A stretch of 37,528 nucleotides of DNA from a virus, in the IMG/VR virus record IMGVR_UViG_3300017735_000034, positions 1 to 37,528 of that record; one strand, 5' to 3'. Position 1 is the stretch's first letter. The number at the start of each line of letters is the position of its first letter. This document shows positions 1,759 to 31,223 of this stretch, piece after piece. Position numbers and translations under genes: made by a program. A model generated the notes under the pieces. That model was given only the letters and a program-made list of their open reading frames with translations. It had not been told where the DNA came from and did no database searches.

Positions 1759-1763
1759 ATACA

Positions 1764-2537: not shown

Positions 2538-2549
2538 CCAAGCACTAAT

Positions 2550-2735
2550 ATGAACGTAATCAACTACATTATCGGAAACTCCGACAACCTCCTAGCTATT
2601 GCTACTGCTATTGTGGCGGCGGCTAGTGCTATCGCGGCTTTAACACCAACACCAACGGACGACGGGTGGGCGAAGAAAGCCTACAAGCTTATTGATTGGG
2701 TAGCCTTTAACGTGGGTAAAGCCAAAGACAAGTGA
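2550..2735 (+). CDS. Putative holin (small membrane protein)
   Basis: The 61-residue protein has one strongly hydrophobic, alanine-rich segment (about residues 13-31, LLAIATAIVAAASAIAALT), followed by a PTPTDDGW turn and a basic, amphipathic C-terminus ending in GKAKDK. Small proteins with this PTPxDD...KAYKLID pattern are common in marine phages and are often annotated as holins, which would permeabilise the inner membrane at lysis. The next ORF starts on an overlapping GTG (GTGA), suggesting translational coupling within a lysis cassette. A second holin-like pair lies after the tail fibre gene, so which one triggers lysis is undecided. Confidence 0.6.
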   Translation: MNVINYIIGNSDNLLAIATAIVAAASAIAALTPTPTDDGWAKKAYKLIDWVAFNVGKAKDK

Positions 2736-2932: not shown

Positions 2933-2996
2933 CGAAGCCGAGAGATATACTATCGGTAATATACTAGACTACATCAACGAACTAGAAAATGAGTAA
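2808..2996 (+). CDS. Putative outer-membrane spanin lipoprotein, Rz1-like
   Basis: The 62-residue product has a basic N-terminus (MLRKLKT), a hydrophobic core (residues 8-18) and a lipobox LMSGC, with the cysteine at about residue 21. This is a clear signal peptidase II site, predicting a small outer-membrane lipoprotein. The mature part is about 40 residues, with leucines and glutamines suggesting a helix. It overlaps the preceding ORF in a different frame by 125 bases, as Rz1 genes do. Together they would complete lysis by disrupting the outer membrane. It also overlaps the next gene by 8 bases. Confidence 0.7.
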   Translation: MLRKLKTVGTLIIAMLLMSGCVTVRESQLPSILQQLNNHDFNEAERYTIGNILDYINELENE

Positions 2997-3252
2997 ACGC
3001 AAGGGCGTCTCTATGCGTAAAGAGCACAAGAACCCATCTGGGGGCTTGTCTCAAAAAGGTAGAGACTACTACAACAAAAAGACTGGATCAAATCTTAAGC
3101 GTCCTGTAACGGGAAAAGCTAAGAAAGGCTCCAAGGCGGCGAAGCGAAGGAAGTCCTTCTGTGCCCGTATGAGTGGCGTTAAGGGACCTATGAAGGATTC
3201 CAAAGGTAGACCAACCCGTAAAGCTCTCGCCCTTCGTAAATGGAAATGTTAA
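2989..3252 (+). CDS. Small basic protein, DUF6321-type
   Basis: This 87-residue protein is lysine- and arginine-rich. It has the pattern GLSQKGRDYYNKKTGSNLKR, then RRKSFCARMSGVKGPMKDSKGR, and ends PTRKALALRKWKC. This matches, from memory, the DUF6321 family found in many marine phages and of unknown function. The strong positive charge suggests nucleic acid binding, possibly in the capsid, but this is inference. It overlaps the Rz1-like gene and is followed after one base by a second tiny basic protein, so both are probably translated from the same late mRNA as the capsid genes. Confidence 0.75.
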   Translation: MSKRKGVSMRKEHKNPSGGLSQKGRDYYNKKTGSNLKRPVTGKAKKGSKAAKRRKSFCARMSGVKGPMKDSKGRPTRKALALRKWKC

Positions 3253-3253
3253 T

Positions 3254-3379
3254 ATGAGCCTATACAAAAACATCAACCGCCGCCGTGCACTCGGCATCTC
3301 CCGTAGCAAGAAAAAGACTACGGTTAGCGATAAAGCTTATTCTAATATGAAGAAGGGCTTTCCTAAAAAGAAGAAATAA
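3254..3379 (+). CDS. 41-aa basic conserved phage protein
   Basis: ATG at 3254 opens a 42-codon frame ending TAA at 3377-3379. The product begins MSLYKNINRRRALGISRSKK and ends in a run of lysines (KKGFPKKKK). Very similar tiny basic proteins sit next to DUF6321-type genes in marine podoviruses, to my knowledge without a function. The spacing (one base after the upstream gene), the strong basic composition and the family-like sequence support it being real despite its size. Confidence 0.7.
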   Translation: MSLYKNINRRRALGISRSKKKTTVSDKAYSNMKKGFPKKKK

Positions 3380-3500
3380 TTTTACCGTCGACGACGACAT
3401 AGAGTAATCACAGCCCATTGCGATGGATAACTGTGACAGAAATAGTCTTAGAAGACACCAACAACTAACTAAACTTAAAACCTAAACAAAAGGAATAATT
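3380..3500 (+). promoter_or_regulatory. Leader of the major capsid gene with strong Shine-Dalgarno
   Basis: This is a 121-base gap before the capsid gene. It holds the palindromic run CGTCGACGACGAC (3385-3397), a small inverted repeat GTCTT-AG-AAGAC near 3449 and an AAAAGGA box at about 3488-3494, six bases before the ATG. That is the clearest ribosome binding site I see among the late genes, fitting the most abundant protein. A GTGACA...ATAG string near 3433-3446 loosely resembles SP6-class promoters; I do not claim it as a promoter. Confidence 0.45.
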
Positions 3501-4586
3501 ATGGCTTTTATGTCATCTGATGCCGCACCTGCGTCTCGCGTAGGTTTGGATCAAAACAACTCAGGAGCAGGAGTGGATTCACTCTTTCTCAAAGTATTCA
3601 GTGGTGAGATTCTCACTGCTTTTGAAACGTCAACTGTAATGAAGGAACTTCACACTATCCGTACAATCGGTTCGGGTAAGTCTGCAAGTTTCCCCGTCAC
3701 AGGTGTCGCCGATAGTGCCTACCACACGGTTGGTCAATCTATCGTCGAAACTGGAACAAGTTACCTCTCTGACATCGCTAAGACTGAGAAGCAAATCTTC
3801 ATTGATGATATGCTTGTTAGTTCTACCTTCTTAGCCAACGTCGACGAGCTAAAGAACCACTATGACATCCGCAGTATCTATGCGGCTGAACTTGGTAAGG
3901 CTCTTGCTAAACGCTTCGACATTGCAACTATGAAGACGCTCTTCGCCGCTACTGGTGCAAGTGCTAACCTTAGTGGTCAAAGTGCAGGAACTCGCATCAC
4001 TGGTGCAGACCTTGACACTACTGCTGAAATCATCGACGCGCTATTTGGCATCGCCACTACGCTCGACGACAACGACGCACCAAGTGAAGGTCGTTTCGCT
4101 ATCCTCACACCAAAGACCTACTACCAGTTGTTGACTTCTGACAACAATGCCATCAACCACGCTGTATCTTCTGACTACGGTAGCGGTGGTAATGTTGCCG
4201 CAGGGTCTATCCCAATGGTAGCTGGTATCCGTCTAATCAAGAGCAACCACCTCAAGGACATTGCTGAACTTGGTGACCAACGCACAGCGACGGTCACAAC
4301 TCAGACTGGCGTTGACGGTTCTGCTGGTGTCAAGAATGACGTAGCAGGTGTTACAGGAGATGGCTATGAGTCCAACTTCTCGGGTCTTGTTACTGGCAGT
4401 GCTGGTAGTGAAACCTATGGTATCCTTGCTGGAACAAAAGAAGCTATTGGCACGGTTAAGCTACTCGACCTCGCAACAGAGTCCGAGTATCAAATCGAAC
4501 GCCAAGGCACACTGTTCGTAGCTAAGTATATGATGGGCCACGGCGTGCTTCGCCCAGAGTGCTCAGTTGCAGTTACTGTAGACTAA
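3501..4586 (+). CDS. Major capsid protein, T7 gp10-like
   Basis: The 361-residue protein is slightly longer than T7 gp10A (345 aa) and has the family layout. A flexible N-terminus carries LFLKVFSGEILTAFE (about residues 28-42), followed by RTIGSGKSASFPVTG and the E-loop/P-domain region with QIFIDDMLVSSTF. The C-terminal A-domain contains AILTPKTYYQLL and ends with GHGVLRPECSV. It forms the HK97-fold icosahedral shell. It is preceded by a strong ribosome binding site and followed 10 bases later by a rho-independent terminator, as in T7, where the terminator after gene 10 caps the main late transcript. The loop between residues 265 and 305 (glycine-, valine- and threonine-rich) looks like a surface insertion. 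Confidence 0.95.
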   Translation: MAFMSSDAAPASRVGLDQNNSGAGVDSLFLKVFSGEILTAFETSTVMKELHTIRTIGSGKSASFPVTGVADSAYHTVGQSIVETGTSYLSDIAKTEKQIFIDDMLVSSTFLANVDELKNHYDIRSIYAAELGKALAKRFDIATMKTLFAATGASANLSGQSAGTRITGADLDTTAEIIDALFGIATTLDDNDAPSEGRFAILTPKTYYQLLTSDNNAINHAVSSDYGSGGNVAAGSIPMVAGIRLIKSNHLKDIAELGDQRTATVTTQTGVDGSAGVKNDVAGVTGDGYESNFSGLVTGSAGSETYGILAGTKEAIGTVKLLDLATESEYQIERQGTLFVAKYMMGHGVLRPECSVAVTVD

Positions 4587-4596
4587 TCCTTAACCA

Positions 4597-4633
4597 AGCA
4601 CCCCTTGGGTCTATCCCCTTGGGGTGCTTTTTT
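4597..4633 (+). terminator. Rho-independent terminator after the capsid gene
   Basis: AGCACCCC (4597-4604) pairs with GGGGTGCT (4621-4628), with an inner GGG/CCC stem, and a six-T tract follows (4628-4633). The position matches the T7 terminator downstream of gene 10. The GTG start used by the next ORF lies in the right arm of the stem. Confidence 0.88.
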
Positions 4634-5025
4634 CCCTGAAAACTAAAAAGAAGTGTATTTCTTGTAATCGTACGAAGCCTTTAGGGGCTTTTGACTTTCA
4701 CAACAGAGACGCTGGAACCGTGCGTAACCAGTGTAAGTCCTGTCGGTCTATAAAACAGATTGAAAGGACTTATGGCATAACTCGCAAGGAATACGAAGAT
4801 CTGCTTAAAAAGCAGGACGGAAAGTGCGCTATATGTTACACAAAAACACCTTCAAAAGATAAGAGCTATAAAAGGCTTTTCATAGACCACTGCCACACAA
4901 CGGGTGACGTAAGAGGTCTACTATGTGCAACATGTAATCAAGGAATCGGTCTCCTTAAAGACGACTCCAAACTACTCAACAACGCAATTTTATATTTAAA
5001 AAACTATGGCAACCCTAACGACTAA
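4624..5025 (+). CDS. HNH endonuclease, recombination endonuclease VII-like (probable homing endonuclease)
   Basis: The 133-residue protein has an N-terminal treble-clef-like C11xxC14...C37xxC40 motif. It is followed by the endonuclease VII core: C68xxC71, DHCH at 88-91, then C101xxC104N. This is the T4 endonuclease VII/HNH family, whose free-standing phage members act as homing endonucleases cutting capsid- or tail-region DNA. The only in-frame start near the beginning is GTG at 4624, inside the terminator stem; the frame is open back to 4594 without an ATG. Its last 20 bases overlap the tail tubular A gene. Insertion directly after the capsid terminator suggests an invading selfish gene. The start is uncertain (a CTG at 4636 is an alternative). 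Confidence 0.82.
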   Translation: MLFSLKTKKKCISCNRTKPLGAFDFHNRDAGTVRNQCKSCRSIKQIERTYGITRKEYEDLLKKQDGKCAICYTKTPSKDKSYKRLFIDHCHTTGDVRGLLCATCNQGIGLLKDDSKLLNNAILYLKNYGNPND

Positions 5026-5596
5026 ACTAGAAGCAGTAAACTCTATGCTGGGTCACATCGGTGAATCACCTGTGAATAGCATAAGTAGCTCCGCCTCATT
5101 GCCCATATCAGCGGCAACGGCTTCAGGAATACTAGATGAAATCAGTCGTGAGGTTCAGTCAGAAGGGTGGCACTTTAACACCACAAATAAACACACACTG
5201 AGTCCCCTAGATGGTAAGATTATTTTACCAGATAATACATTACACGTAGATGCTTTAGATAAAAACGTCGACGTCGTTCAGAGAGGATTAAGTTTATATG
5301 ACCGAGAAAACAACACAACTACTTTCACAAAAGACCTTAAGGTAGTCCTGATGGTTTTATTAGATTGGGACGACTTACACGAGACAGCTAGACGTTACAT
5401 AACACTCAGAGCTTCTCGTGTGTTTCAAGGACGTATGGTAGGCTCTCGCGAGCTTGAAGCTCTTATAGCGAGAGACGAGTATCAAGCTAGAGCGCGTCTT
5501 GAGGAGATGGATTCTAGCGGATCGGATCGCACTATATTTGACAACTACGACGTAGCCTCTAGAATAGGCATCAACCGTAACTACGAATTGCTATAA
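5006..5596 (+). CDS. Tail tubular protein A, T7 gp11-like
   Basis: The 196-residue protein matches T7 gp11 in length (196 aa) and pattern. It begins with a LEAVNSMLGHIGESPV segment (residues 8-23), followed by an EISREVQSEGWHFNT segment and a C-terminal helix ending in NRNYELL. This gatekeeper ring sits below the portal and connects to the nozzle. The start ATG is within the end of the HNH gene and has no visible Shine-Dalgarno box. Its TAA overlaps the ATG of the tail tubular B gene (TAATG), indicating coupled translation. Confidence 0.92.
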   Translation: MATLTTKLEAVNSMLGHIGESPVNSISSSASLPISAATASGILDEISREVQSEGWHFNTTNKHTLSPLDGKIILPDNTLHVDALDKNVDVVQRGLSLYDRENNTTTFTKDLKVVLMVLLDWDDLHETARRYITLRASRVFQGRMVGSRELEALIARDEYQARARLEEMDSSGSDRTIFDNYDVASRIGINRNYELL

Positions 5597-8451
5597 TGCC
5601 ATTAATTAATACGTCTTTACCTAATCTTATACAGGGTGTATCACAGCAACCTGACGCAACTCGCTTTGCTGGTCAGTGCGAGACACAAGAGAATGCGATT
5701 AGCTCTGTTGCAGAAGGTTTAAAGAAACGCCCAAACACGCGACACGTTGCTAAGTTACTGTCGACGGCTATAGACAACAACAGCTTCGTTCACTTTATCA
5801 ATCGTGATGACGAAGAGAAGTATGTAGTAATACACGGTGGTTCTACTCTTGAGGCTTGGAACATGGTTACTGGTGAGAAGTGTTCTATAACCGATGCTAA
5901 TGCTAACACCCCCAATTACTCGGCTTATTCTACCAACAATTATCTAACTACAACTAATCCAAGAGAAGACATTAAAGCTCTAACTGTATCAGACAATACC
6001 TTTATTGTTAATAAGAATGTTAGTGTTGGTATCTCTCAAACGAAAACACCAGCCTTAGAAAAGAAGGGGTTTGTTTACGTAGCTCAAGGTGATTACAAGA
6101 AGAAGTATCAAGTTAATATTGGAGGTAATATTGAGGGAGATGTACCAGCCAATCAAGCAACATTTAATGTTGTTGTTGAAGGTTACTACCACGGTAGTGG
6201 TTGGCATCGCTTTAGAATAGGGAGTGTTGAAGTTGTTAATGGAGGGTCAGGCTACGCCGCAACGACACCGCGTTTGTTAAACGTCTCTATAGATTTTGGT
6301 CTCTTGGGAACAACAAGACCTAGAAGTTATAGAAATCTTGTTACAAACCCAGTGATACGCGCCGTGTTTGCTGATGATGGCACGGGTAATGGAACTAAAA
6401 AGATAGAATCAGTTATCATCTCCAATAAAGGTAAATTTGGAAGTCACGACAAAAGTGAAACTGGTGATAGTTTTAGTGAGGATTATAACGGATTAGTAGT
6501 CCTTACAGCCCAAGGAGATATCTCTACTGGCATACAACACAGCTTTTCAACGGTAGGGTCAGCCTCTTCCGCTGACGATGCGGCTACAGACAACATCGCT
6601 ACGTCGCTATTTAACGCTACATATTCGCCTAGCTCTTTTAGTGCCGCTGTTCCTATGATTGGGACTGATGCTCTTAATCCAATCTTTATGGATGCGGACC
6701 CCGCGCTTACGCCTACTAGAGAGGGAAACACTATTATTATTAAACATAATAGAACGAGTGGTGATTTTACCCTAGAAACAACAGACGGCTTAGGGGGTGA
6801 AGGGATTAAGGCTGTTTACAAGCGCGTTAATTCACTTGTAGACCTACCAGTAAAAGCACCTAATAACTTTGTAATAGAAATTGTCGGAGACGCTGATTTA
6901 GATCAAGACAACTACTGGGTGAAGTTTACAACAAACAGCGGTGCTGATTTTGGTGAAGGAGCGTGGGAAGAAACAGTTGCTCCTGACGTCTCTGATGGTT
7001 TTGACGCCGCCGACATGCCTATGACCATTAGAAGTGTAGACATAAACAAACTTGAGGTTAGCACTTTAGATTTTAACAGAAGAGCCGCTGGAAACGAAGA
7101 AACTAACCCAGACCCCTCATTTGTAGGTAAGACAATTAAAGACATCGTTTTCTTTCAAAACAGGCTTGGTTTTATAACTGAAGATAGTGTTGTATTCTCT
7201 GAGACTGGTGAGTTCTTTAACTTTTATAAAACCACCGTGTCAGCTTTACTAGACACAGCACCCATTGACGTTACGGTAAGCACCACAAAAGTTGCTAAAC
7301 TTTCTTCAGGTGTGGTATTCCAAGAAAACCTAATGCTTTTTGCAGACAACGTGCAGTTTATTATGAAGGGCGGAGACACGTTTACTCCTAAGACTGTTTC
7401 GGTGTCTGCCTCTACTAATTTTAGTCTAGAAGAAGATGCAAAACCAATTCTTATTGGTTCTTACTTATACTTTGCTTTTACTCGCGGTGCTTTCACTGGT
7501 ATGAGAGAATTATCCGTAAAAGGTAATACTGAGACCTACGACGCTGTAGAGATTACAGAGCACGTTCCCGCGTATATCCCTAATAAAATTATAGCAATGA
7601 AGGGGACAACATCTGAAAATATCCTTGCCCTGCTTAGTGCTAATGACCGCAGTTCTTTATATATCTATAACTACTTTTGGAGTAATGATCAGAAGGTTAT
7701 TAGTGCTTGGTCAAAGTTTACGTTTACGGGTGACGTCCACGGCATGGAATTTATAGATTCTCGTCTTTACTTGGTAATAACTAACAACGGAGAAACTAAT
7801 CTCGTTGAAGCACCTATAGAATCTGGACTAACGGACACCGATGACCCCTTTATACCCGCCAGCCAAACAGCTGTCAGCTTAGGTTTTGTTACTCACCTAG
7901 ATATGCGGGTGACAGCTACAGTCGCTAATGGCGCATCTTCAATAACCCTCCCTTACACCCCACAGGACAACTCGGTAGAGGTTTACACAACAGATGGGCA
8001 TTTATTAAGGTCAACTAATGTAGGGGCTACTGTTACGCTTTCACAGGCTGTAAAGGCAGACACCGATGTATTTGTAGGAATACCCTACAATATGAAATAC
8101 ACTTTTAGTGAGCAGTTATTCAAAGCAACAGCAGGAAAGGGGAAGTCCCCTAATGCCTCTGCTAAATTAATGATTCGTAATGGTTCGGTCTACTACGACA
8201 AAACTAGTTACTTTAAAGTTACCGTCACGCCTAAATCTAGAGACTCTTATGTAAATACGTTTACAACCGCTGTGGTCGGCTCATCTCAGTTAGGCGCACT
8301 AGAGCTAGAAAGTGGATCTTTTCGTTTTCCAGTCTTTACTAAGGCAGAGGATACCACCATTACAATTGAGAATGATAGTGCCTTGCCCAGTAATTTCCAG
8401 TCGGCAGAATTTGAGAGCTTTCTTCACAGCCGATCAAACAGATATGGCTAA
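5596..8451 (+). CDS. Tail tubular protein B (nozzle), T7 gp12-like
   Basis: The 951-residue protein opens with the family signature NLIQGVSQQPDATRFAGQC, followed by EGLKKRPNT. It contains the VFFQNRLGFITEDSVVFSETGEFFNFY block (about residues 515-541) and an ALLSANDRSSLYIYNYFW beta-propeller segment, all characteristic of T7-like nozzle proteins. It is longer than T7 gp12 (794 aa), with extra beta-rich sequence around residues 170-330. It forms the hexameric tail nozzle to which fibres attach. It is coupled to the upstream gene by a TAATG overlap and overlaps the downstream gene by 8 bases. Confidence 0.94.
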   Translation: MPLINTSLPNLIQGVSQQPDATRFAGQCETQENAISSVAEGLKKRPNTRHVAKLLSTAIDNNSFVHFINRDDEEKYVVIHGGSTLEAWNMVTGEKCSITDANANTPNYSAYSTNNYLTTTNPREDIKALTVSDNTFIVNKNVSVGISQTKTPALEKKGFVYVAQGDYKKKYQVNIGGNIEGDVPANQATFNVVVEGYYHGSGWHRFRIGSVEVVNGGSGYAATTPRLLNVSIDFGLLGTTRPRSYRNLVTNPVIRAVFADDGTGNGTKKIESVIISNKGKFGSHDKSETGDSFSEDYNGLVVLTAQGDISTGIQHSFSTVGSASSADDAATDNIATSLFNATYSPSSFSAAVPMIGTDALNPIFMDADPALTPTREGNTIIIKHNRTSGDFTLETTDGLGGEGIKAVYKRVNSLVDLPVKAPNNFVIEIVGDADLDQDNYWVKFTTNSGADFGEGAWEETVAPDVSDGFDAADMPMTIRSVDINKLEVSTLDFNRRAAGNEETNPDPSFVGKTIKDIVFFQNRLGFITEDSVVFSETGEFFNFYKTTVSALLDTAPIDVTVSTTKVAKLSSGVVFQENLMLFADNVQFIMKGGDTFTPKTVSVSASTNFSLEEDAKPILIGSYLYFAFTRGAFTGMRELSVKGNTETYDAVEITEHVPAYIPNKIIAMKGTTSENILALLSANDRSSLYIYNYFWSNDQKVISAWSKFTFTGDVHGMEFIDSRLYLVITNNGETNLVEAPIESGLTDTDDPFIPASQTAVSLGFVTHLDMRVTATVANGASSITLPYTPQDNSVEVYTTDGHLLRSTNVGATVTLSQAVKADTDVFVGIPYNMKYTFSEQLFKATAGKGKSPNASAKLMIRNGSVYYDKTSYFKVTVTPKSRDSYVNTFTTAVVGSSQLGALELESGSFRFPVFTKAEDTTITIENDSALPSNFQSAEFESFLHSRSNRYG

Positions 8452-19431: not shown

Positions 19432-20769
19432 ATGCCTCAAACATATTATGAATACTCTGGCAGTGCCCTATCTGCCACCACTTACAGTGTGCCCTTCAAA
19501 TACCTAGTCATCGACGATGTTAATGCGCTCGGTTTTAATGGGACTAGCTGGACTGCTCTAGCTCTTCACGCGGTTACTCCACGGGATGCAATCAATAACA
19601 CGATTACTTTAGCTTCTGCGCCTCTTGGTTCTTACTCTAAACTTAGACTGTATCGTTCGACGACTACGACCCAACTGATTGACTTTCAGAACGGCTCTAG
19701 GTTAACGGAGAATGATTTAGATACAGCATACCAACAGAGTCTGTTTGTAGCTCAAGAGATAGCTGAAGACTCTAGTACTTCTCAGTTTGCCGCAGTAAGA
19801 AAGGCGGGAGCCGAGGTGGGCACTAGTCTATCAAACTTTGCGAGCGAAAAGCTCGTATCGGATGCAACTAACGGGTTAATTGATGGATCAAATACTCTTT
19901 TTAATATTACAGCCTTTACCCCACAGACTACAGAAACTGAGGCGTATCGTGTAACAATTAACGGGTTACTTCAGGCTCCAGATTCTTATGCAATTAGTTT
20001 AGCTACCCCAAATCTTGTGTTTGCTACAGCACCAGCAAGCGGCGCAGAGGTTGTTGTAGTAACAACCGCAAGTGCTTCTAACGCCGCTTTTGTTGACACT
20101 TCAACGCTTGAAATTACAAGCTCTAACTCAATTAATGTTAAAGACCTAGGCGTAACTAACGCTAAATTAGCTGGAAGTATTACACAGGATAAACTAGCAG
20201 GTGGTATCACAAATGAAAAGTTAGCTGGAAGTATTACACAGGATAAACTAGCAGGTGGTATTACTAATAACCAGTTAGCTGGAAGTATCGCAACAAGCAA
20301 ACTCGCTGAAGTTATAGATGATGACACCTTTACTACAGGCGTGTCGGCAACCGCGTTGGCTAGTTCTGAAAGTATCAAGGCGTATGTAGACAATATAACC
20401 GCCAAAGTCTTTAGAAGTAGTTTTGTTACTATACCTGCCTATTCAGCGTCGAACGCTCCGATTACTTTTACTCACGGACTAGGTGCAGTGCCCGACCTTG
20501 TTCAATATCACCTAAAATATATAAACACCAATGCAGACGGAAGCGACATCACCGTGGATCACTATACCACTGGTGATATTATAATTATACCTGCTAGTAA
20601 TTTTGAAACAAATTACTATGGTACAGTTACTAAAATAAACACGACAACCGTTGCTGTTAAGATCGGCTCAAATGGTCTCTTCTTCCCTACTTATAATACT
20701 GGAGCTAACGACGTTTTAGTAGCAAATCACTGGAAAATGCAGTGCATTGCATCAATCTTCCAACCTTAA
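19432..20769 (+). CDS. Tail fibre protein, T7 gp17-like N-terminal domain
   Basis: The 445-residue protein begins with the T7 tail fibre N-terminal domain (residues 1-125: YYEYSGSALSATTYSVPFKYL, then SKLRLYRSTTT and GSRLTENDLDTAYQQSLFVAQE), which docks the fibre to the nozzle. A middle beta-rich domain (140-215) follows. Residues 240-290 then hold repeats of the type LAGSITQDKLAGGITN, encoded by a 54-bp DNA repeat; such repeats form a slender trimeric shaft. The last 120 residues (ITFTHGLGAVPDLVQYHLKY and onward) are the probable receptor-binding tip. It is the only obvious adhesin in the genome. Confidence 0.92.
   Translation: MPQTYYEYSGSALSATTYSVPFKYLVIDDVNALGFNGTSWTALALHAVTPRDAINNTITLASAPLGSYSKLRLYRSTTTTQLIDFQNGSRLTENDLDTAYQQSLFVAQEIAEDSSTSQFAAVRKAGAEVGTSLSNFASEKLVSDATNGLIDGSNTLFNITAFTPQTTETEAYRVTINGLLQAPDSYAISLATPNLVFATAPASGAEVVVVTTASASNAAFVDTSTLEITSSNSINVKDLGVTNAKLAGSITQDKLAGGITNEKLAGSITQDKLAGGITNNQLAGSIATSKLAEVIDDDTFTTGVSATALASSESIKAYVDNITAKVFRSSFVTIPAYSASNAPITFTHGLGAVPDLVQYHLKYINTNADGSDITVDHYTTGDIIIIPASNFETNYYGTVTKINTTTVAVKIGSNGLFFPTYNTGANDVLVANHWKMQCIASIFQP
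20167..20292 (+). repeat. 54-bp tandem repeat within the tail fibre gene
   Basis: Units at 20167-20220 and 20221-20274 are nearly identical, and a partial third begins at 20275. They keep the reading frame (18 codons each) and encode the LAGSITQDKLAGGITN shaft repeat. Unit number could vary by recombination and change fibre length. Confidence 0.9.
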
Positions 20770-23361: not shown

Positions 23362-23477
23362 AATGATGACGAAGACGATAAGAATGACTTATATCTGTAT
23401 TTTAGGCTTGACAAGGGTCAACTAAGGTATACCTATAAGTGTCTTAGGGTTTAGAGTTTAAAACGTCTACATCATCT
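23362..23477 (+). repeat. Promoter-like direct repeat, copy 1
   Basis: This stretch starts AATGATGACGA, carries TTTTAGGCTTGACA and then a near-identical tract from TATAAGTG (23434) to 23477. The last 44 bases match copy 2 (28198-28241) at 40 positions by my count. The second copy precedes the early genes before RNA polymerase. The two copies bracket the accessory region. Confidence 0.85.
23408..23439 (+). promoter_or_regulatory. Candidate promoter in repeat copy 1
   Basis: TTGACA at 23408-23413 and TATAAG at 23434-23439 are 20 bases apart, long for a sigma-70 promoter. GGTATACCTATAAG here matches 11 of 14 positions of the SP6-like string in copy 2, so it may be a phage polymerase promoter instead, or both overlaid. 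Confidence 0.5.
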
Positions 23478-23497
23478 AACTAAGGTCAATTAATGAG

Positions 23498-24186: not shown

Positions 24187-24220
24187 AAAAAACCCTAGGC
24201 ATCCGAAGACACCTAGGGTT
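24187..24220 (-). terminator. Leftward terminator with UUCG tetraloop (copy 1)
   Basis: On the minus strand AACCCTAGG pairs with CCTAGGGTT, extended inward by TGTC/GATG closing a TTCG loop, and a T tract (A run at 24187-24192 on the plus strand) follows. It lies 22 bases past the stop of the 99-aa leftward gene. The hairpin is identical to the one at 24801-24835. Confidence 0.88.
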
Positions 24221-24242
24221 GGAATAGCAAGCTCCTCTGAAT

Positions 24243-24542
24243 CTACAGAAGTCCAGAAGTATCTAGAACATCGCAGTAACGGTCACCATCCGTGCCCGTA
24301 TACAACTCAATATACACTACGGCTCCAAGCTCTATAGTCGGCTCATCTACGCGGTTCTTTACCCAAGCATCACGAACGGCTGGCATACCTTGCTCATCAA
24401 TATACACAACATCACACGCCCATTTCTTTGCGGGCACCTTTGAACCTTTCGGTGCACCATTGCGCCACTGCGTTTTTACACGCGCTTTAGTAACTACACG
24501 GTTCTTATCTACTGCGACTTCATTTGTTTCTGTATTATTCAT
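24243..24542 (-). CDS. 99-aa protein of unknown function
   Basis: I start this leftward gene at the ATG at 24540-24542 (product begins MNNTETNEVAVDKNRVVTKA). The frame extends further upstream, but that part is translated from a 12-bp tandem repeat (SSAC repeats) and is unlikely to be coding. The protein has a basic middle (KTQWRNGAPKGSKVPAKKW), a beta-rich CDVVYIDEQG segment and an acidic end. I recognise no family. It has its own terminator 22 bases downstream, a near copy of the one ending the next leftward unit. That suggests the two short genes are separately expressed members of one control scheme. Confidence 0.6.
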   Translation of the reverse strand: MNNTETNEVAVDKNRVVTKARVKTQWRNGAPKGSKVPAKKWACDVVYIDEQGMPAVRDAWVKNRVDEPTIELGAVVYIELYTGTDGDRYCDVLDTSGLL

Positions 24543-24800
24543 ATGTATAAGTGCTTCATATTTTCGGGAAGCTACCGATTTAGTATTAACAACCACAAGC
24601 AGACATGCTCTCTGGTCACCAAGACCCAGAGAGTATGATGCAGAGCTACACGCAGAGCTACACGCAGAGCTACACGCAGAGCTACACGCAGAGCTGTGCA
24701 CGAGGGGCACTGTGGGGGACATGTGTGGTGTGCATGCGTGGGCGCGTTAGCGCTACTATGTTAGGGACGCCTACGATAAATGATAGTAGGTGAGGACCAC
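24543..24800. other. Non-coding gap with hairpin and tandem repeats
   Basis: I see no supported gene. A hairpin CTCTCTGG/CCAGAGAG (24608-24615 with 24626-24633) is followed by the 12-bp tandem repeat listed separately and then a GT-rich tract. The promoter of the leftward 99-aa gene should be in this gap, but I cannot assign boxes with confidence. Confidence 0.5.
24641..24695. repeat. 12-bp tandem repeat, about 4.6 copies
   Basis: The unit CAGAGCTACACG occurs exactly at 24641, 24653, 24665 and 24677, and a partial unit follows at 24689-24695. All four full units are identical, which points to recent expansion or a functional array such as protein-binding iterons. T7 has short repeats next to its terminal repeat, a possible parallel. 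Confidence 0.92.
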
Positions 24801-24835
24801 AAAAAAACCCTAGGCATCCGAAGACACCTAGGGTT
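24801..24835 (-). terminator. Leftward terminator with UUCG tetraloop (copy 2)
   Basis: This has the same stem and loop as copy 1 (AACCCTAGG...CCTAGGGTT with a TTCG loop) and a seven-T tract on the minus strand (24801-24807). It lies 26 bases past the stop of the ribbon-helix-helix gene. Confidence 0.88.
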
Positions 24836-24861
24836 GTGTTGGTTGTTATGACTACGACGAC

Positions 24862-25044
24862 TTATCCACGATACACTCCGATAGCATCTGTTTTAGATAG
24901 CTGAGTGACTATGTTGCGGATACGAATACTAGGTGCGATACCATCCTTTTGTTTTAAGGATAGTAGATGGTTTACTGTAGCTTCATCCAATTTGATTGTG
25001 ATTGGTTTAGGAGTTACTTGTGTGTTGTCTGATGACAGGTTCAT
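24862..25044 (-). CDS. Putative ribbon-helix-helix DNA-binding protein
   Basis: The 60-residue leftward product contains KPITIKLDEATVNHLLSLKQ (about residues 13-32), followed by DGIAPSIRIRNIVTQLSK. That is a short beta strand, helix, turn, helix with the hydrophobic spacing of Arc/MetJ/CopG-type ribbon-helix-helix repressors, which dimerise to bind operators with the strand. The N-terminal dozen residues look disordered. It is located between the amidoligase operon and the 99-aa gene and has its own terminator. A role as local repressor of the leftward module or of the duplicated promoters is plausible but unproven. Confidence 0.6.
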   Translation of the reverse strand: MNLSSDNTQVTPKPITIKLDEATVNHLLSLKQKDGIAPSIRIRNIVTQLSKTDAIGVYRG

Positions 25045-25181: not shown

Positions 25182-26243
25182 CTAGTATGATTGTATCATT
25201 TTTGTATTAGGGTTACTAAGTGCATTGGCTTTGAAGTATAGCCATGCGTTGGTGATGTCGCCGTTATCTAACTCAACGGGTATTTGTTTCCGTTGGTAGT
25301 GCCATGGGACACCTTCAAGTGTGTCTAGTGAATCGCGATCTTCTATTTTGTCTACTTCGTATACTTCAATGCGTACGTTGTGACCTTTACCAGCTTCGTC
25401 GAACATATACGGTAGGCTGGATGATATTTGCAGTGGATACTTGTTTATAGTGTAGCCTGTGCTAACTAACTTCATGCCAGTGTTGAATCTATCGTAGTTT
25501 CTACCGCCTCCTTTAAGAGTGCCGTAGACTGCAACTTTGTTGTTGTTTTCCCAGCTAGGATAATCTGTATCTGAATACCAATTATCGTAGTAGTCGTCTT
25601 CGTATAGGGGGTCACTACATATAGGTTCTTTTGCTAGATGACCGCTATATCTAGTGGTACAACTGGTTGATTTTTTACTATATGATGTGAGTGGTTGTGA
25701 GTATTTACCTGACCAGTTGTAGTGACCAGATGTATAACCCGTTCCGTAACCGATGTATTTAGCGAAACAGTCTGATTTGCTGTAGTATACACCTTCTTTT
25801 TTGTGCCATTTGCCGTGGCGTGTTACGTTGCCGTCACCGTCTACGAGTGCAAACCGTGTTTCTGTGAATGATAGCATTGCATCCCAGTGTTCTTCTGGTG
25901 TATTGCTTAGTATATCACATACTACTTGAGTGTCGCACTTGTCTTTTGATCCTAGATCGGCAACAGTGCCGTTACTGAATAGCCAGCGTTCTGGTTTGTC
26001 TACAAAGAACGGGTGACAGTTATCTAGTATGACCGGTCCTTTGGTTGCATACCTATAGTGTGCTACGAAGGGTCGCTTTACTTCTAGAAGTGTGCGCGCA
26101 CGTTCATAGTCCATTGTTGTGATACATTCTAGATCGTCTAAGTAAACGATACCGAATCCGTCTGGGTTCTTAGTCTCCGCATTATCTATGTAAGTGGGAT
26201 TAAGGCTTGTTTTTGCTTTTGGTTTATGTATTATTAGGCACAT
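25182..26243 (-). CDS. Class II glutamine amidotransferase fused to a gamma-glutamylcyclotransferase (AIG2)-like domain
   Basis: The 353-residue leftward protein begins MCLIIHKP; Cys2 would be the N-terminal nucleophile after methionine removal. Class II GATase landmarks follow: GFGIVY, HYRYATKG, NCHPF and FSNGTVADLG (all before about residue 95), the usual places for the RxAT and NG motifs that bind glutamine. From about residue 236 a GGCT/AIG2-like fold starts with VYGTLKGGGRN (Y240), continuing with IEVYEVD, DSLEGVPWHYQRK-type and NAWLYF segments. The first domain would release ammonia from glutamine. The second is of the family that cyclises or cleaves gamma-glutamyl linkages. It lies 4 bases downstream of the putative amidoligase, indicating one operon and probably one pathway. 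Confidence 0.8.
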   Translation of the reverse strand: MCLIIHKPKAKTSLNPTYIDNAETKNPDGFGIVYLDDLECITTMDYERARTLLEVKRPFVAHYRYATKGPVILDNCHPFFVDKPERWLFSNGTVADLGSKDKCDTQVVCDILSNTPEEHWDAMLSFTETRFALVDGDGNVTRHGKWHKKEGVYYSKSDCFAKYIGYGTGYTSGHYNWSGKYSQPLTSYSKKSTSCTTRYSGHLAKEPICSDPLYEDDYYDNWYSDTDYPSWENNNKVAVYGTLKGGGRNYDRFNTGMKLVSTGYTINKYPLQISSSLPYMFDEAGKGHNVRIEVYEVDKIEDRDSLDTLEGVPWHYQRKQIPVELDNGDITNAWLYFKANALSNPNTKMIQSY

Positions 26244-26247
26244 TGTA

Positions 26248-27981
26248 TTATACTTCTGTGGTTTCTATTGTGTTGTTATGGGCTACTTCTAGAGCTTCTG
26301 TATTTAGAAGGTCGTCGTGTATATCCCATGAGCTTTGGTTTTGACTCCAGTGACGTTGTGCGTCTGTGAGTAAATTTCTAGGTCCTTCTGATTCGTGAGT
26401 GCGTAGATACTGAAGGATACTGGTTAGGTTAACTGTGGGGTCGTCGTCGAGCCATGCTTGGAACTGGTATGAATTGATTACCATAATTTTTAGGTCATCA
26501 ATACGATTTTTGTATGCTGGTTCTAAGAAGTCTTTTATATCCCATAATAAGAATCTAATTTTTTTGTAAACATGTGAGTCGTAGAACTCTGATCTGAAAC
26601 ATAGATCATATTTGAAATTACGATACAATGTTTGTGTTCCAAACTCTACATCTAATCTACTGTTAACAGTATCCATAGTATTTATATATTGCTCTTTGTT
26701 TTCTACATAGTTATATATATGGCTGAATAGATGTTGGAACAGTTTGAATCTGCGTAGTAGTTGTTGTTTGTTGTTGATGCGACTTGGTAGTCTGAATTCT
26801 ACACGACGTGGGTTGTCTTTCATAACAACAGCTCCATACCGTTCGTGGTTACCTGCACGTAGTTTTTTGTTATAACTACTGTAAGTATTTCTTAGTCGTT
26901 TTTTATACATGCTATATATAGGACCTACGAATTTTGATATGTCACTTAGCTCTATTTGGTAGTCACATATGTCATCTTCTTTGAATGCTACATTTGTATG
27001 ACCACCGCAGTCGTAAGTGGTTTGTTCGTCTACGTAGTCTGATGCTACTACGTGTGCTTGGAATGTATCAAAGTCACCAAGGTTGTATATGTTGGTTACA
27101 CCTTCTACGCCACAGCTACTGTCTGTTTCCCAGTGACTGAATAGTGGTTGTGTTTCTACTGCTTGACCACATCCTCGTCTACCATTTACACTTGTTTTTT
27201 CTACTTCAAATCCGATTGTGAATTTGTTTAGTCCTGCTACATCTGTGCGTGCTGTTGATGTGTTTGATAGATCAATAGGTCGTGGACCGTGGTGGTAGTC
27301 GTTGATGTAGTCACGAGTGTTGCGTGTTTCACCATACTCGCTACTACTACTTCTATGTGGTGCGTCTTCATGATAGTAACAATCGTGCTCTTCGTTGTAG
27401 TTACAGTGTTCTTCTAGGAAGTGTTCTTCATAGTGATCACAATACCTGATTGAATCTGATTGCGGTGTGTATGCACAGTCGTCAACTATTATTGGTATAC
27501 CTTCATTATTTTGTGCAAATAGTTTTTCTATAAGCATATACGGCATTACTTCGTATATATTATTTACTGCTCGGTCATTAAAATCAACACCACTTATTCT
27601 TTCATACCATTCATATTCCATACGTAGAGTATTTACATAGTACAAGCCATCTATTATTGTAGCTATTTGTCGTGCCATGTCTACATGGTATATTTTTGTT
27701 TGTCTTGGGTTAACAATTACTAGTCTGTAGTTATGTAGCTCGTTTGCATAACGATCTTGTGGTATATTTTTATACTCACCATTTTGGTCTATTACTCGTA
27801 TATATGGTCTTTCTGATATGCTTTCTACACTATGTATAGGTTTGCATACTTCTGCACACACATTATCTATTTCTGAATCTCTGCGTGCTCTGAGAAACTC
27901 AAACACATCTCTAGTTTCATAGAATTTAGTATAGTGTCCGATGTCTCCTGTTGATTGTGCTTCTGTGTAGTCGTAATACAT
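26248..27981 (-). CDS. Putative amidoligase (COOH-NH2 ligase, glutamine synthetase-like fold)
   Basis: The 577-residue leftward protein has a unique N-terminal half with a Cys/His cluster (about residues 181-210, CDHYEEH...CNYNEEHDCYYHED) that may bind metal. The C-terminal half shows the amidoligase pattern: GFEVE at 257-261, HWETDSSCGVEGVTNIY, then CGGHTNV from C325, and RRVEFRLPSR at about 392-401. These resemble the metal- and ATP-binding acidic residues and the GGH and R motifs of the amidoligase_2-type family, which form amide bonds between carboxylates and amines. Adjacent class II GATase and GGCT domains are the known companions of these enzymes in bacteria and phages. The substrate is unknown: peptide, peptidoglycan, protein or DNA modification are all possible. 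The gene is AT-rich. Confidence 0.72.
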   Translation of the reverse strand: MYYDYTEAQSTGDIGHYTKFYETRDVFEFLRARRDSEIDNVCAEVCKPIHSVESISERPYIRVIDQNGEYKNIPQDRYANELHNYRLVIVNPRQTKIYHVDMARQIATIIDGLYYVNTLRMEYEWYERISGVDFNDRAVNNIYEVMPYMLIEKLFAQNNEGIPIIVDDCAYTPQSDSIRYCDHYEEHFLEEHCNYNEEHDCYYHEDAPHRSSSSEYGETRNTRDYINDYHHGPRPIDLSNTSTARTDVAGLNKFTIGFEVEKTSVNGRRGCGQAVETQPLFSHWETDSSCGVEGVTNIYNLGDFDTFQAHVVASDYVDEQTTYDCGGHTNVAFKEDDICDYQIELSDISKFVGPIYSMYKKRLRNTYSSYNKKLRAGNHERYGAVVMKDNPRRVEFRLPSRINNKQQLLRRFKLFQHLFSHIYNYVENKEQYINTMDTVNSRLDVEFGTQTLYRNFKYDLCFRSEFYDSHVYKKIRFLLWDIKDFLEPAYKNRIDDLKIMVINSYQFQAWLDDDPTVNLTSILQYLRTHESEGPRNLLTDAQRHWSQNQSSWDIHDDLLNTEALEVAHNNTIETTEV

Positions 27982-28126
27982 TTTATTATATTGGTTTATG
28001 TGCGAGCCAGCCAGCCACCGTGACGGACTGCCCTCAACGAAGTGGGCAGACCGACAAAGGAAAAGAGAGGAAGCTTAAAAAGCATTGAAGAGTTAAGACG
28101 TAAGAGCCGAAGCGTTACTTTAGTGT
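27982..28126. other. Non-coding gap upstream of the amidoligase operon
   Basis: This holds the leftward leader with CACATAAACCAA (plus 27991-28002) and a hairpin CTGCCC/GGGCAG (28028-28033 with 28044-28049). The AGCCAGCCA string near 28006 resembles part of the terminator stem at 24051. No gene was found. The leftward promoter for the amidoligase gene should be here, but no convincing pair of boxes is visible. Confidence 0.45.
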
Positions 28127-28241
28127 AATGATGACGACGATTATTAAAACAAATTATATTGTGTTTTAGGCTTGACAGCTGTTATTTAGGGGACACTTAT
28201 AAGTGTTTAAGGGTTTAGAGTTTATAACGTCTACGTCATCT
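28127..28241 (+). repeat. Promoter-like direct repeat, copy 2
   Basis: This is the second copy of the block at 23362-23477: AATGATGACGA, TTTTAGGCTTGACA, TATAAGTG and a conserved GGGTTTAGAGTTTA leader. Conservation runs well past the -10 position, into what would be transcribed sequence. Confidence 0.85.
28172..28203 (+). promoter_or_regulatory. Candidate early/phage promoter, SP6-like
   Basis: TTGACA is at 28172-28177 and TATAAG at 28198-28203 (20-base spacing). From 28184 the string ATTTAGGGGACACTTATA closely resembles the SP6-class promoter ATTTAGGTGACACTATAG, differing by one substitution and one inserted T. It may serve the phage-encoded RNA polymerase, with the TTGACA box serving the host enzyme. 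Confidence 0.55.
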
Positions 28242-28278
28242 AGCTATAGTTAATCTTATGGTGCACTCTTAGTGTTAC

Positions 28279-28327
28279 TGATGATAGTTGTCGGTTCGCC
28301 TACGTGATGATAGTTGTCGGTTCGCCT
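28279..28327 (+). repeat. 23-bp direct repeat upstream of the early genes
   Basis: Identical 23-base copies lie at 28279-28301 and 28305-28327, each beginning TGATGATAGTTG and ending CGGTTCGCCT, separated by three bases. They sit immediately upstream of a TTGACA box, as operators or activator sites often do. Confidence 0.9.
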
Positions 28328-28337
28328 GAAAAAATGC

Positions 28338-28366
28338 TTGACACAACACATTATGGGTCTCTTACT
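28338..28366 (+). promoter_or_regulatory. Weak sigma-70 promoter candidate before the first early gene
   Basis: A perfect TTGACA (28338-28343) is followed 17 bases later by CTTACT (3 of 6 matches). The -10 is poor, so activation through the adjacent direct repeats is possible. Confidence 0.35.
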
Positions 28367-28413
28367 CGCCTCTCAAGCCTTTAGCTTTTTAAGGGCATAA
28401 CCCAAAATACACA

Positions 28414-28584
28414 ATGATTATACAAAACGAAGATGCACGCAACAGCTATGACGCTCAAATACCTGAATTTATGAAGTGGGCGCAACAACGAATAGCTAGA
28501 GAGGTTAAAGAAAACGAAGAGCTTGTTGATAAATACGGAACAGCGGACATTCATTCGCCTTTCATTAAAAAGACTAATAAATAA
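28414..28584 (+). CDS. 56-aa early protein, unknown
   Basis: ATG at 28414 opens a 57-codon frame ending TAA at 28582-28584. The product begins MIIQNEDARNSYDAQIPEFM and is highly charged with a predicted helix through QQRIAREVKENEELVDKYG. It ends in PFIKKTNK. I recognise no family. It is the first gene downstream of the early promoters and lies four bases before the next small gene, so it is probably an early host-interaction factor. Confidence 0.6.
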   Translation: MIIQNEDARNSYDAQIPEFMKWAQQRIAREVKENEELVDKYGTADIHSPFIKKTNK

Positions 28585-28588
28585 TAAC

Positions 28589-28792
28589 ATGATAGTTAAA
28601 ACCACTCCGCGACCGCCCTTATTTAAACCAGATACTGAAGCTATTTTAACCAGAGGAGTAAACGCATTAACTATGGCGTGTGACTCCTTGAACTCTCAGA
28701 ACGAAGAACTGTTAGAAGAGATTAAAGGCTTGAACTTACAAATAAGTCGTCTTCAAGAAAAGATACTAGAAAACCCAGCAGACAAGGAGTAA
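28589..28792 (+). CDS. 67-aa coiled-coil early protein, unknown
   Basis: I use the ATG at 28589 (product begins MIVKTTPRPPLFKPDTEAIL), because the longer frame from 28523 would overlap the previous gene by 62 bases. The C-terminal half (SLNSQNEELLEEIKGLNLQI and on) has leucine heptads and looks like a coiled coil. No family is recognised. The stop is one base before the RNA polymerase ATG, with GGAG just upstream of that start, so it probably forms an operon with the polymerase. Confidence 0.65.
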   Translation: MIVKTTPRPPLFKPDTEAILTRGVNALTMACDSLNSQNEELLEEIKGLNLQISRLQEKILENPADKE

Positions 28793-28793
28793 A

Positions 28794-31223
28794 ATGACAG
28801 ACACGCTATCTCAAGAGCAGTTAAACGCTGATATGCAGACCCTAGGTCTTGGACGCTATCGTTCGCGCAACGAATCAGCCAAGAACCGAGATGCTGAGCT
28901 TGAGACGCGCTATGGTCAGAGACTCATGAGAGCCTCTCTGCCTATTTATGTTAAGGCTATTGATGACTGGATGCTAAAGATTGCATTACAGAAAAATCAA
29001 GCTCGTTACCAGATAGACGTCGTCGACTTAGACTCTAAGCTAGTGTCGTTTGTTGCCGTTAAGGGTATCTTAGACAGCATCACCAAGAGAAAGCCCTTGT
29101 CTGGTGTTGCTCACCACGTAGGTGCACAGATAGAAAATGAGTGTCGCTGTGCTTTTCTTTTAGAGAATAACGAGGAGAAAGGAAGTGGTATACTGTTGGG
29201 GGCTAAGCGTCGTAAGGGGAAAGCCTCTAAGATACGCCACGTTCGCTCTAGCATGAAGCATGAGGCTTCAAAGGGGTTGATGGACGCTTGGGATAAGTGG
29301 AGCCATAGGGACAAGCTTAACGCAGGTTTACACCTTGTTGAGCTGTTGCGTACATCGACGTCGTTGATTGAATACGTCTACATCGTCGACAGTAAAAGAA
29401 AAAAGAAACCAACTAGGTATGTTACAGCCACCAAAGAAACTTTAGAATGGATTGAGAACTTCAACGAACACCGAGAGTTGCTTGAGCCATTCTGGTTGCC
29501 AACCATTGAACTACCTACTCCTTGGGAAAGCGTGTGGGAGGGAGGGTATGATACTAAAAACACCTCCCTTCCACTGTTGCCGTTCATAAAGACATCCAAT
29601 ATGGATTTCTTAAGGGACATAAAAGGTTCTATAGATGCTCCTATGCGTGCCACAAATCTTATCCAACAAACACCGTGGCGTATCAACTCCAAGGTTTTAG
29701 ATGTCATGGGGTGGTCTTGGGAGAACTCTTTACAAATAGGAGATCTACCTTCTAGGGAGGACGAGCATCTACCACCATTACCCTCAGACTTTAAAGAAAA
29801 CGAGAAGGCTAACAAGCAGTGGAGGCAGATGGCGGCTCGTGTGTATAACCACCGACTAAGTACCACCAGTAGACGCCTGTTAGTTGCCAAGGTTCTTTAT
29901 GTTGCCAATAAGTTACGTGGCAATCGCTTCTTCTATCCATCTCAAGTGGACTTTAGAGGGCGCATCTACAACATCCCTGCGTTTCTTGGTATCCAAGGAC
30001 CAGATATGAGCAGGGGGTTGCTTGAATTTAACCGCCCATGTAAGATCAAGAATGATGAACAAGCCTATTGGTTGGCTATTCAAGGGGCAAACACCTACGG
30101 CAACGACAAGGTGACTCTAGACGAGAGGGTAGCGTGGGCTAGAAGCATAGCTAACGAGGTCGACAAGGTAGTACAAGACCCCAAGAACAACACCTTTTGG
30201 CACGAAGCCGATTCACCTTGGCAGTTCTTAGCTTGGTGTTTTGAGTGGGCTGAGTATTGCGCTACGGGTTCTGTCACTTCTCATCTTCCAGTTAACATGG
30301 ACGCAAGCAATAATGGCTTGCAGATTCTTTCTATGCTTATGCGTGATCCATACGGATGCGAAGCAACCAACGTATTACCAACAGACACACCTGCCGACAT
30401 ATACCGAGTGGTGTCTGACAGTGTTGTTGCTAAACTAATCCACGACAGAGACACGGGGGGTAATCCCGTCGCTTCCGATTGGTTGAGCTTTGGGATAGAC
30501 AGAAAGCTCGCTAAAAGACCCACAATGGTTTGGCCCTACGGTGGCACTTTTTATAGCTGTAGAGCCTACGTCGACGAATGGTATCAAGACACACTTAGAA
30601 AAACTAGGTGTCCTAACCCTTTCTCAGAGGACTTACGCTATAAAGCTACTGGCTATCTTGCTAGGTTAACGTGGGCGTCAATTAACGAGGTGCTCCTTAA
30701 GCCTAAAGAATGTATGCAATGGTTACAGGGGGTAGCTCTTGAGCTTGCTAAGCACAAGCAACCAGTTCAGTGGGTGACGCCTTCTGGTTTTCCTGTATTG
30801 CAGGACTACCGCAAGACTCAAAGTCAGCACGTTCAGAGTCTAATCAACGGGGAGGCTACACATATCAAGTGGTATACCGACTCCTCTGACATCTCAGCCA
30901 GAAGACAGAAGCAGGGTATGTCCCCAAACTTTGTTCATTCCCTCGACGCTTCAGCCTTGACTGAGTCTGTAATACGAGCTAATGAATACGGTATATACGA
31001 CTTTTCAATGATACATGACTCTTACGGAACGCACTCAACGTCGTGCGCTTTATTTGGAGATTTATTAAGAAAATCATTTTATGACATTTTTAGGGTTGAC
31101 TTGCTTGCTGACCTTAGATACCAAGTTATTGAAAGACACCCAACTATAAACATTTCAGAACCACCACGCTACGGAGATGTAGACATATCAAAGGTCTGCG
31201 ACAGCACTTATTTCTTCTGTTAG
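28794..31223 (+). CDS. Single-subunit DNA-directed RNA polymerase, T7 gp1-like
   Basis: The 809-residue protein is shorter than T7 RNA polymerase (883 aa) but keeps all catalytic motifs. Motif A is PVNMDASNNGLQ with D503, and motif B is KLAKRPTMVWPYGG with K574 and Y582. VHSLDASALTESV follows, and motif C is MIHDSYGTH with D742. These correspond to T7 D537, K631, Y639 and D812. It would transcribe the middle and late genes from phage promoters. The reduced length falls in the N-terminal half and probably reflects a different promoter-binding domain. A GGAG box lies just before the ATG. Confidence 0.97.
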   Translation: MTDTLSQEQLNADMQTLGLGRYRSRNESAKNRDAELETRYGQRLMRASLPIYVKAIDDWMLKIALQKNQARYQIDVVDLDSKLVSFVAVKGILDSITKRKPLSGVAHHVGAQIENECRCAFLLENNEEKGSGILLGAKRRKGKASKIRHVRSSMKHEASKGLMDAWDKWSHRDKLNAGLHLVELLRTSTSLIEYVYIVDSKRKKKPTRYVTATKETLEWIENFNEHRELLEPFWLPTIELPTPWESVWEGGYDTKNTSLPLLPFIKTSNMDFLRDIKGSIDAPMRATNLIQQTPWRINSKVLDVMGWSWENSLQIGDLPSREDEHLPPLPSDFKENEKANKQWRQMAARVYNHRLSTTSRRLLVAKVLYVANKLRGNRFFYPSQVDFRGRIYNIPAFLGIQGPDMSRGLLEFNRPCKIKNDEQAYWLAIQGANTYGNDKVTLDERVAWARSIANEVDKVVQDPKNNTFWHEADSPWQFLAWCFEWAEYCATGSVTSHLPVNMDASNNGLQILSMLMRDPYGCEATNVLPTDTPADIYRVVSDSVVAKLIHDRDTGGNPVASDWLSFGIDRKLAKRPTMVWPYGGTFYSCRAYVDEWYQDTLRKTRCPNPFSEDLRYKATGYLARLTWASINEVLLKPKECMQWLQGVALELAKHKQPVQWVTPSGFPVLQDYRKTQSQHVQSLINGEATHIKWYTDSSDISARRQKQGMSPNFVHSLDASALTESVIRANEYGIYDFSMIHDSYGTHSTSCALFGDLLRKSFYDIFRVDLLADLRYQVIERHPTINISEPPRYGDVDISKVCDSTYFFC

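Follow-up and report, generated by a model that had tools for sequence, protein, structure and literature searches.

A pair of leftward genes in a T7-like phage genome

The virus record IMGVR_UViG_3300017735_000034 of IMG/VR was analyzed over its positions 1 to 37,528, and this whole stretch of 37,528 nucleotides is termed the window hereafter. Our analysis concerns two adjacent leftward genes of the window which a preceding interpretation of the DNA letters (the sequence-only reading) had put forward as a glutamine synthetase-like (GS-like) amidoligase and a class II glutamine amidotransferase (GATase) fused to a GGCT/AIG2-like domain. The corresponding open reading frames (ORFs) lie at 26248-27981 (-) and 25182-26243 (-), encode 577 and 353 amino acids (aa), referred to below as the ligase and the partner, and are separated by 4 bases, as had been described. 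All motifs listed in the sequence-only reading are present, namely GFEVE, CGGHTNV and VEFRLP in the ligase, and Cys2, HYRYATKG and SNGTV in the partner. Together, the two genes take up 2.8 of 37.5 kb (7.4%) of the window.

The earlier description of a 37.5-kb T7-like genome is in agreement with PHROGs comparisons, which identified an RNA polymerase (phrog_414, 1.4e-217), a terminase, a connector, a primase/helicase and a DNA polymerase. Polymerase and terminase both have their best named match in AP013544, the uncultured marine phage MedDCM-OCT-S45-C18 (Autographiviridae, Ayaqvirus); for the terminase, Roseobacter phages rank next. AP013544 was inspected over 27.8 of its 40.6 kb, the terminase-to-polymerase interval included, and no such gene pair is annotated there; a megablast comparison of the first 24 kb of the window with phage records gave no match.

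The partner is a predicted class II amidotransferase fused to a GGACT domain

The C-terminal part of the partner (residues ~233-353) matched Pfam GGACT (gamma-glutamylamine cyclotransferase) at 6e-19 (69.2 bits, cut-off 22.8). In the predicted structure (mean predicted local distance difference test score, pLDDT, 80.3; predicted template modelling score, pTM, 0.50), two confident domains are joined by a floppy linker of low confidence at residues 164-225. The GGACT domain superposed on human and mouse GGACT with a Z score of 18.2 (1.6-2.0 Å over 119-121 residues, ~30% identity), followed at lower scores by YkqA (Z 13.6), human GGCT (11.7) and ChaC2 (10.1). For the N-terminal part (residues 1-163), GATase_4 scored 20.6 bits, under the Pfam cut-off of 23; given this score and the short, divergent domain, the class II GATase assignment was made by fold and residues. 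The closest fold match of this N-terminal nucleophile (Ntn) domain was the GlmS glutaminase (Z 13.1, 3.5 Å, 158 residues), with EgtC at Z 12.2.

The residues expected of both active sites are conserved among the 83 fusions collected, 20 of which, chosen by hand, make up alignment A5. Within the GATase domain, C2, R64, N91, G92 and D104, which we take to be the residues of the class II glutaminase site, are kept in every row with letters at these positions (81-83 rows); L071 and L073 lack the GATase N terminus since their ORFs start late. Within the GGACT domain, Y240-G-T-L, E310 and Y316 are found in 83/83 fusions and Y336 in 82/83, E310 being aligned with the catalytic Glu82 position, which is altered in the GGACT E82Q entry 3jud. 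As mapped by structure alignment, these positions correspond to the catalytic-site list given for mouse GGACT in PMC2954230. Taken together, conserved motifs, predicted folds and relatives support the proposal that the partner is a class II (Ntn) GATase fused to a GGACT domain, much as the sequence-only reading had it.

The ligase represents a putative divergent branch of GS-like ligases

The 577-aa product is best described as a putative divergent GS-like amidoligase (carboxylate-amine ligase), with a core at residues ~245-430 preceded by a variable N-terminal half. In an alignment of 23 rows (A4; the window and 22 hand-chosen relatives, out of a ligase cluster with 54 members), G257, E259, E261, D287, S289, E293, R362, Y382, E395 and R397 are kept in all rows and H328 in 22. 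The resulting order GxExE ... GxE ... GxH ... R ... ExR, a motif set derived in this analysis from the alignments, is the same in the window branch and in a second, Pfam-positive branch (A6; 14 rows, also hand-chosen, from the other ligase cluster, which has 22 members), one member of which, L035, reaches 85 bits for Amidoligase_2. The ligase model (mean pLDDT 67.3) is confident in blocks 251-330 (86-96) and 401-430 (93). Using VIA-align, we found YbdK as its best match (Z 8.7, 4.6 Å, 194 residues), with glutamine synthetases (GS) and glutamate-cysteine ligases (GCL) at Z 6.4-7.4, and all 50 rows listed are chains (YbdK, GS, GCL) which we take to belong to the GS superfamily. Foldseek comparison with viral models returned named amidoligases at E 5.6e-7 and weaker.

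Several observations run counter to this assignment. The core is partly poorly modelled (pLDDT 42-52 at residues 361-380 and 70-77 at 381-400), and the Z of 8.7 is little above the best value of 7-8 that is typical of models without a clear match. Foldseek against the PDB gave nothing below E 0.001, the best hit, at E 9.6e-3, being a glutamine synthetase. The window ligase matches no Pfam family at E 1, Amidoligase_2 (PF12224) matches none of the 23 ligase rows at E 0.1, and profile-profile comparison of the window branch with the Pfam-positive one gave a weak score (probability 4.9).

Amidoligase_2 matched 3 of 19 records, G000 not being among them; NCBIfam returned no family for the ligase, PHROGs a single weak match (E 0.094), and the 23-row profile, compared with PDB sequences, found just a ribosomal chain (E 0.88). 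Membership of the window ligase in Pfam Amidoligase_2 was rejected, its score staying below the curated cut-off, and the window branch is outside current Pfam detection. Motif order, the modest fold match and the viral amidoligase models nevertheless support placing the window ligase, as a predicted member, in the GS-like COOH-NH2 ligase superfamily; motif conservation, predicted fold and relatives thereby favour the amidoligase assignment of the sequence-only reading.

Ligase and partner recur together in phages

IMG/VR was searched with the GATase-GGACT protein as the only query, yielding 207 confirmed loci, the best 80 of which were kept. The loci were ranked by similarity to this query, so that the selection favours the fusion and does not favour the presence of a ligase; near-duplicate contigs were retained (L011/L012 and L028/L029 look alike, and L008 is the contig of L006). 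A ligase gene is found on the same strand in 72 of these best 80 loci; the eight loci devoid of it have less than 2.2 kb upstream, and every locus with more carries one. By single-linkage BLAST clustering, 51 of the 72 ligases belong to the window's cluster and 21 to the other one. The ligase is the next ORF in 31/72 and lies within 250 bases in 31/72. Three of the 72 were scored as not upstream; in L009, L010 and L084, the overlap between ligase ORF and GATase start amounts to 10-41 bases. Moreover, ligase and partner distances covary (rho 0.55, 20 loci, none of 5000 permutations as high), as expected of genes travelling together.

The pair is likewise present in two named phages, Podoviridae sp. 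ctfjg026, with 58 bases between the genes, and C75C1, with 852 bases and a ligase annotated as amidoligase, and in Acinetobacter phage vB_AciJM_313 and OM43 phage MEP401 the ligase is followed by a GATase without GGACT. The window ligase and the ligase of one relative each match a single phage record, MW202828, and the window ligase alone as IMG/VR query returned one near-identical contig; GATase-based alignment was needed to reach the family. A plasmid search with the partner protein of a relative gave one GGCT-only match. Overall, the recurrence of the pair across IMG/VR phages is beyond chance, and the two genes are neighbours in the relatives surveyed, a point on which the sequence-only reading had staked its proposal.

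Cellular relatives were sought with short patterns in 84,980 genomes, and the 19 loci found are a lower bound. By hidden Markov models, the fusion is present in three of them (L090, L091, L092), the remainder having the GGACT domain only. No ligase was found near these three fusions, L090 and L091 having little over 1 kb or less upstream. In L093 (4406-6369, an Opitutales metagenome-assembled genome, MAG), two GGACT genes in tandem come after an Amidoligase_2 gene, with no GATase found; ligase and GGACT therefore associate even without GATase. As a separate observation, the L092 fusion (664-6822) sits beside dimethyl sulphoxide-reductase-type, uracil-DNA-glycosylase-like and Eco57I-type restriction-modification genes.

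The pair occupies the early region of T7-like genomes

The T7-like polymerase cluster is present in 9 of the 80 loci. Five of these loci (L009, L010, L019, L020, L025) extend to the terminase; in them, as well as in the window, the pair is found between the terminase gene and that of the polymerase, an interval which is the early end of a T7-like genome. The pair is on the polymerase strand in 6/9 T7-like loci, whereas L008, L009, L010 and the window have it on the opposite one. Elsewhere among the phages, it precedes clusters with representatives matching exonuclease, single-stranded DNA-annealing, DnaA-like and primase families, each in 19-25 of 83 stretches. This early-end position, together with the location ahead of replication and recombination genes, would suit an early-region module for host takeover rather than virion building.

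We also noted that a tyrosine integrase cluster (c33, identified by Pfam on one representative) adjoins the pair in 8/9 T7-like loci (L009, L010, L014, L017, L018, L019, L020, L025), with no tyrosine integrase there in L008 and the window.

The N-terminal half of the ligase changes rapidly

Across the 23 ligase rows, mean identity to the window is 0.41 in the core, 0.08 at residues 1-160 and 0.18 at 161-244, and GFE(V/I)E is preceded by 133 to 348 aa. A comparison of the window with L006, a close relative, showed 28 differences in the ligase, 4 of them within the 186-residue core (Fisher p 0.04; one pair); the nonsynonymous-to-synonymous rate ratio (dN/dS) was 0.56 for the ligase, as against 0.04 for the polymerase, and 0.27 for the partner, the latter from just 6 changes. 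The N-terminal half is perhaps an accessory, target-recognising region, the alternative being relaxed constraint. Earlier, a Cys/His cluster, which lies at residues 181-204, had been pointed out as a feature of this half; Cys181 is present in 18/23 rows, Cys193 in 9/23 and the other six Cys/His positions in just 1-4, and we dropped the cluster as a zinc site on account of these mostly unconserved positions.

Comparison with known systems

That the amidoligase theme was already known, as had been noted, is apparent from print. 'Peptidoglycan modification' cassettes are described in podoviruses (RIO-1/PSA-HP1, LUZ24/tf/UFV-P2, PA11, phiEco32; PMC5498523, PMC3890496, PMC11945000) and, according to the citing papers, go back to predictions of Iyer et al. 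2009 and of Hardies et al. 2013. They share with the window linked amidoligase, class II GATase and GGCT/AIG2 functions. In UFV-P2 and PSA-HP1 these are separate genes accompanied by a second ligase and an ATP-grasp enzyme (PMC3890496, PMC5498523), whereas the window has two genes, with GATase and GGACT fused and a ligase branch unseen by Pfam. The PF14395 ligase and R2K_3, the sole ATP-grasp family tried, were each found in 0/19 records, in searches whose positive controls gave no match for PF14395 and one weak match for R2K_3. The marine OM43 phages MEP401 and MEP402 (PMC10580990) also have adjoining amidoligase and GATase genes, the GATase being 27% identical to the window partner; in contrast to the window, their GATase lacks GGACT, and their ligase is weak for Amidoligase_2 (21.0 bits, cut-off 22). 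A fused GATase-GGACT paired with an amidoligase did not appear in the literature searched, and Iyer 2009, Hardies 2013 or the mycobacteriophage Marvin paper may describe one.

Regarding cellular enzymes, human and mouse GGACT (A2LD1) share with the partner the fold, ~30% identity, the YGTL loop and the catalytic Glu82 position, but are stand-alone enzymes. YbdK, GS and GCL share the core fold and motif order with the window ligase, which differs by its modest structural score, the absence of a PDB sequence match and its long extra N-terminal half. In ergothioneine synthesis, EgtA is a gamma-glutamylcysteine synthase and EgtC a class II GATase-fold hydrolase, both acting around a gamma-glutamyl intermediate. 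This couple (names as tabulated in PMC6154287) combines two fold types similar to those of the window pair in a different pathway, and without a GGACT domain.

Thus, the window pair is a compact variant of a known phage theme, of which the LUZ24-, RIO-1- and phiEco32-type cassettes are familiar, and not a new kind of system. Less familiar are its two-gene form, the GATase-GGACT fusion and the fast-changing N-terminal half of the ligase.

A possible module for making and editing gamma-glutamyl amides

The active sites of ligase, GATase and GGACT share one chemical theme, the gamma-glutamyl amide, and this shared theme is our reason for preferring a module by which such bonds would be formed and edited on a target of the host. 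From the conserved active-site positions, the folds, the pairing and the early-region position observed above, we infer substrates, direction, target and benefit as follows. By analogy with GS, GCL and YbdK, the ligase would use ATP to activate a carboxylate, probably the gamma-carboxyl of glutamate, and join it to an amine or ammonia. The partner may recognise the gamma-glutamyl group twice: glutamine or a different gamma-glutamyl amide would be hydrolysed by its Ntn domain (Cys2), while its GGACT domain would free the amine from a gamma-glutamyl amine, leaving 5-oxoproline. The variable N-terminal half of the ligase could set the target, for which the likeliest candidate would be a building block of the host envelope (a peptidoglycan precursor), changed early to the advantage of the infecting phage, for example through exclusion of phages arriving later. 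We consider the chemistry, that is the making and editing of gamma-glutamyl-type amides, fairly probable; the complete proposal of an early-region two-enzyme module acting in this way on a host target is about evenly balanced, and peptidoglycan as the target is tentative, with the chances against it.

A change of the cell wall with superinfection exclusion has been proposed for related cassettes (PMC5498523, PMC10580990, PMC11318856), and the idea was a prediction of 2009 repeated in later papers, with no enzyme assays of phage amidoligase cassettes reported in the portions of the literature covered. The window offers a small test system in this respect, a 2.8-kb two-gene version in a T7-like phage with two proteins and three active sites, and its GGACT-type domain suggests that gamma-glutamylamines are the chemistry to look for.

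A number of findings tell against the module proposed here. Ammonia supply and gamma-glutamyl amine cleavage in one protein are not obviously parts of one pathway. Only 31/72 ligases lie within 250 bases of the partner, with up to 3.9 kb intervening elsewhere, and shared phage ancestry would also yield the covariation of ligase and partner. In L092 (a Campylobacteraceae MAG), 6 kb lie upstream of the fusion and no ligase was found; the fusion can therefore stand alone. Finally, the ligase changes faster than the polymerase (0.56 vs 0.04, one close pair), for which weak constraint is another possible cause.

The same enzymes may be arranged into other schemes. MurT/GatD amidates peptidoglycan glutamate with folds unrelated to those of the window pair. 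A comparable glutamine-fed amidation, in which the Ntn domain would pass ammonia to the ligase for amidation of carboxylates while GGACT serves a side function such as recycling gamma-glutamyl by-products, draws on the complete class II glutaminase residues, on GlmS as the best Ntn match and on the conserved association with a ligase of GS-like fold, ammonia being used by this fold. However, a side function leaves the intact GGACT residues of 83/83 fusions unexplained, EgtC, a gamma-glutamyl hydrolase without a synthase partner, is tied with GlmS (Z 12.2 vs 13.1), and the L092 fusion is without ligase; we regard this scheme as unlikely. Somewhat unlikely, too, is a metabolic or anti-defence role away from the cell wall, in which amines, signals or proteins would be gamma-glutamylated and released, or nitrogen scavenged. 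The GGACT-type domain, the early-region position and the resemblance of the ligase N-terminal half to a fast-changing recognition region are consistent with it, as is the proposal, in PMC10945688, that similar genes of a deep-sea phage aid nitrogen metabolism; the growth effect described there, however, was observed with the whole phage, no enzyme assay appearing in the text covered, and PADLOC, whose library comprises defence and not counter-defence proteins, gave no match for the four leftward ORFs. Quite unlikely, in our estimate, is a switch in which the ligase would add gamma-glutamyl groups to host proteins or other host amines picked by its fast-changing N-terminal half and the fusion would remove them; if true, such a writer-eraser pair would provide the phage with a reversible non-ribosomal isopeptide tag early in infection.

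The sequence-only reading had also named DNA bases among the possible targets. Amide-forming enzymes could in principle decorate phage bases with amino-acid groups, but none of the 26 window ORFs scanned with PHROGs (some small ORFs being outside the scan) makes a modified nucleotide, and none of 17 distinct neighbour-cluster representatives resembles a base-modification gene, which renders this target highly improbable. Decay into non-functional genes, for which the ligase dN/dS of the window against its one close relative could be quoted, is barely credible in view of the catalytic positions retained in 23 ligase rows and in 83 fusions, the lower partner ratio (itself from just six changes) and the scarcity of ligase changes in the core.

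Other features of the leftward unit and its surroundings

Downstream of the partner, a 60-aa ORF at 24862-25044 (-) has no family match, and relatives of it occur in L008 and L009 (cluster c76). It is followed by an intrinsic terminator-like hairpin at 24802-24836 (-), identical to a second one at 24187-24221 (-); the two copies, 35 nt each, are 615 nt apart, and two copies are also present in L006. Between them, a 159-aa ORF at 24243-24722 (-), which matches no family with confidence, is assigned to the leftward unit solely from its position. It contains a 12-base tandem repeat (24628-24699), whose repeat peptide differs in sequence and length in L006.

A consensus scan for a promoter of the leftward unit gave no minus-strand site from the ligase start at 27981 to 28850, and no exact repeat of 12-150 bases joins the contig ends at the six lengths tried. 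An imperfect direct repeat of 129 nt (78% identity; 23362-23490 and 28127-28254) flanks the whole leftward unit, each copy lying upstream of rightward genes and the right-hand one being 99% conserved in L006; regulatory DNA common to both sides, or a boundary of recombination, are possible explanations. Two identical 23-nt copies precede the polymerase unit at a spacing of 26 nt (28279-28327), and a run of 27-nt repeats is found at 20155-20316 within the tail-fibre-like gene at 19432-20769.

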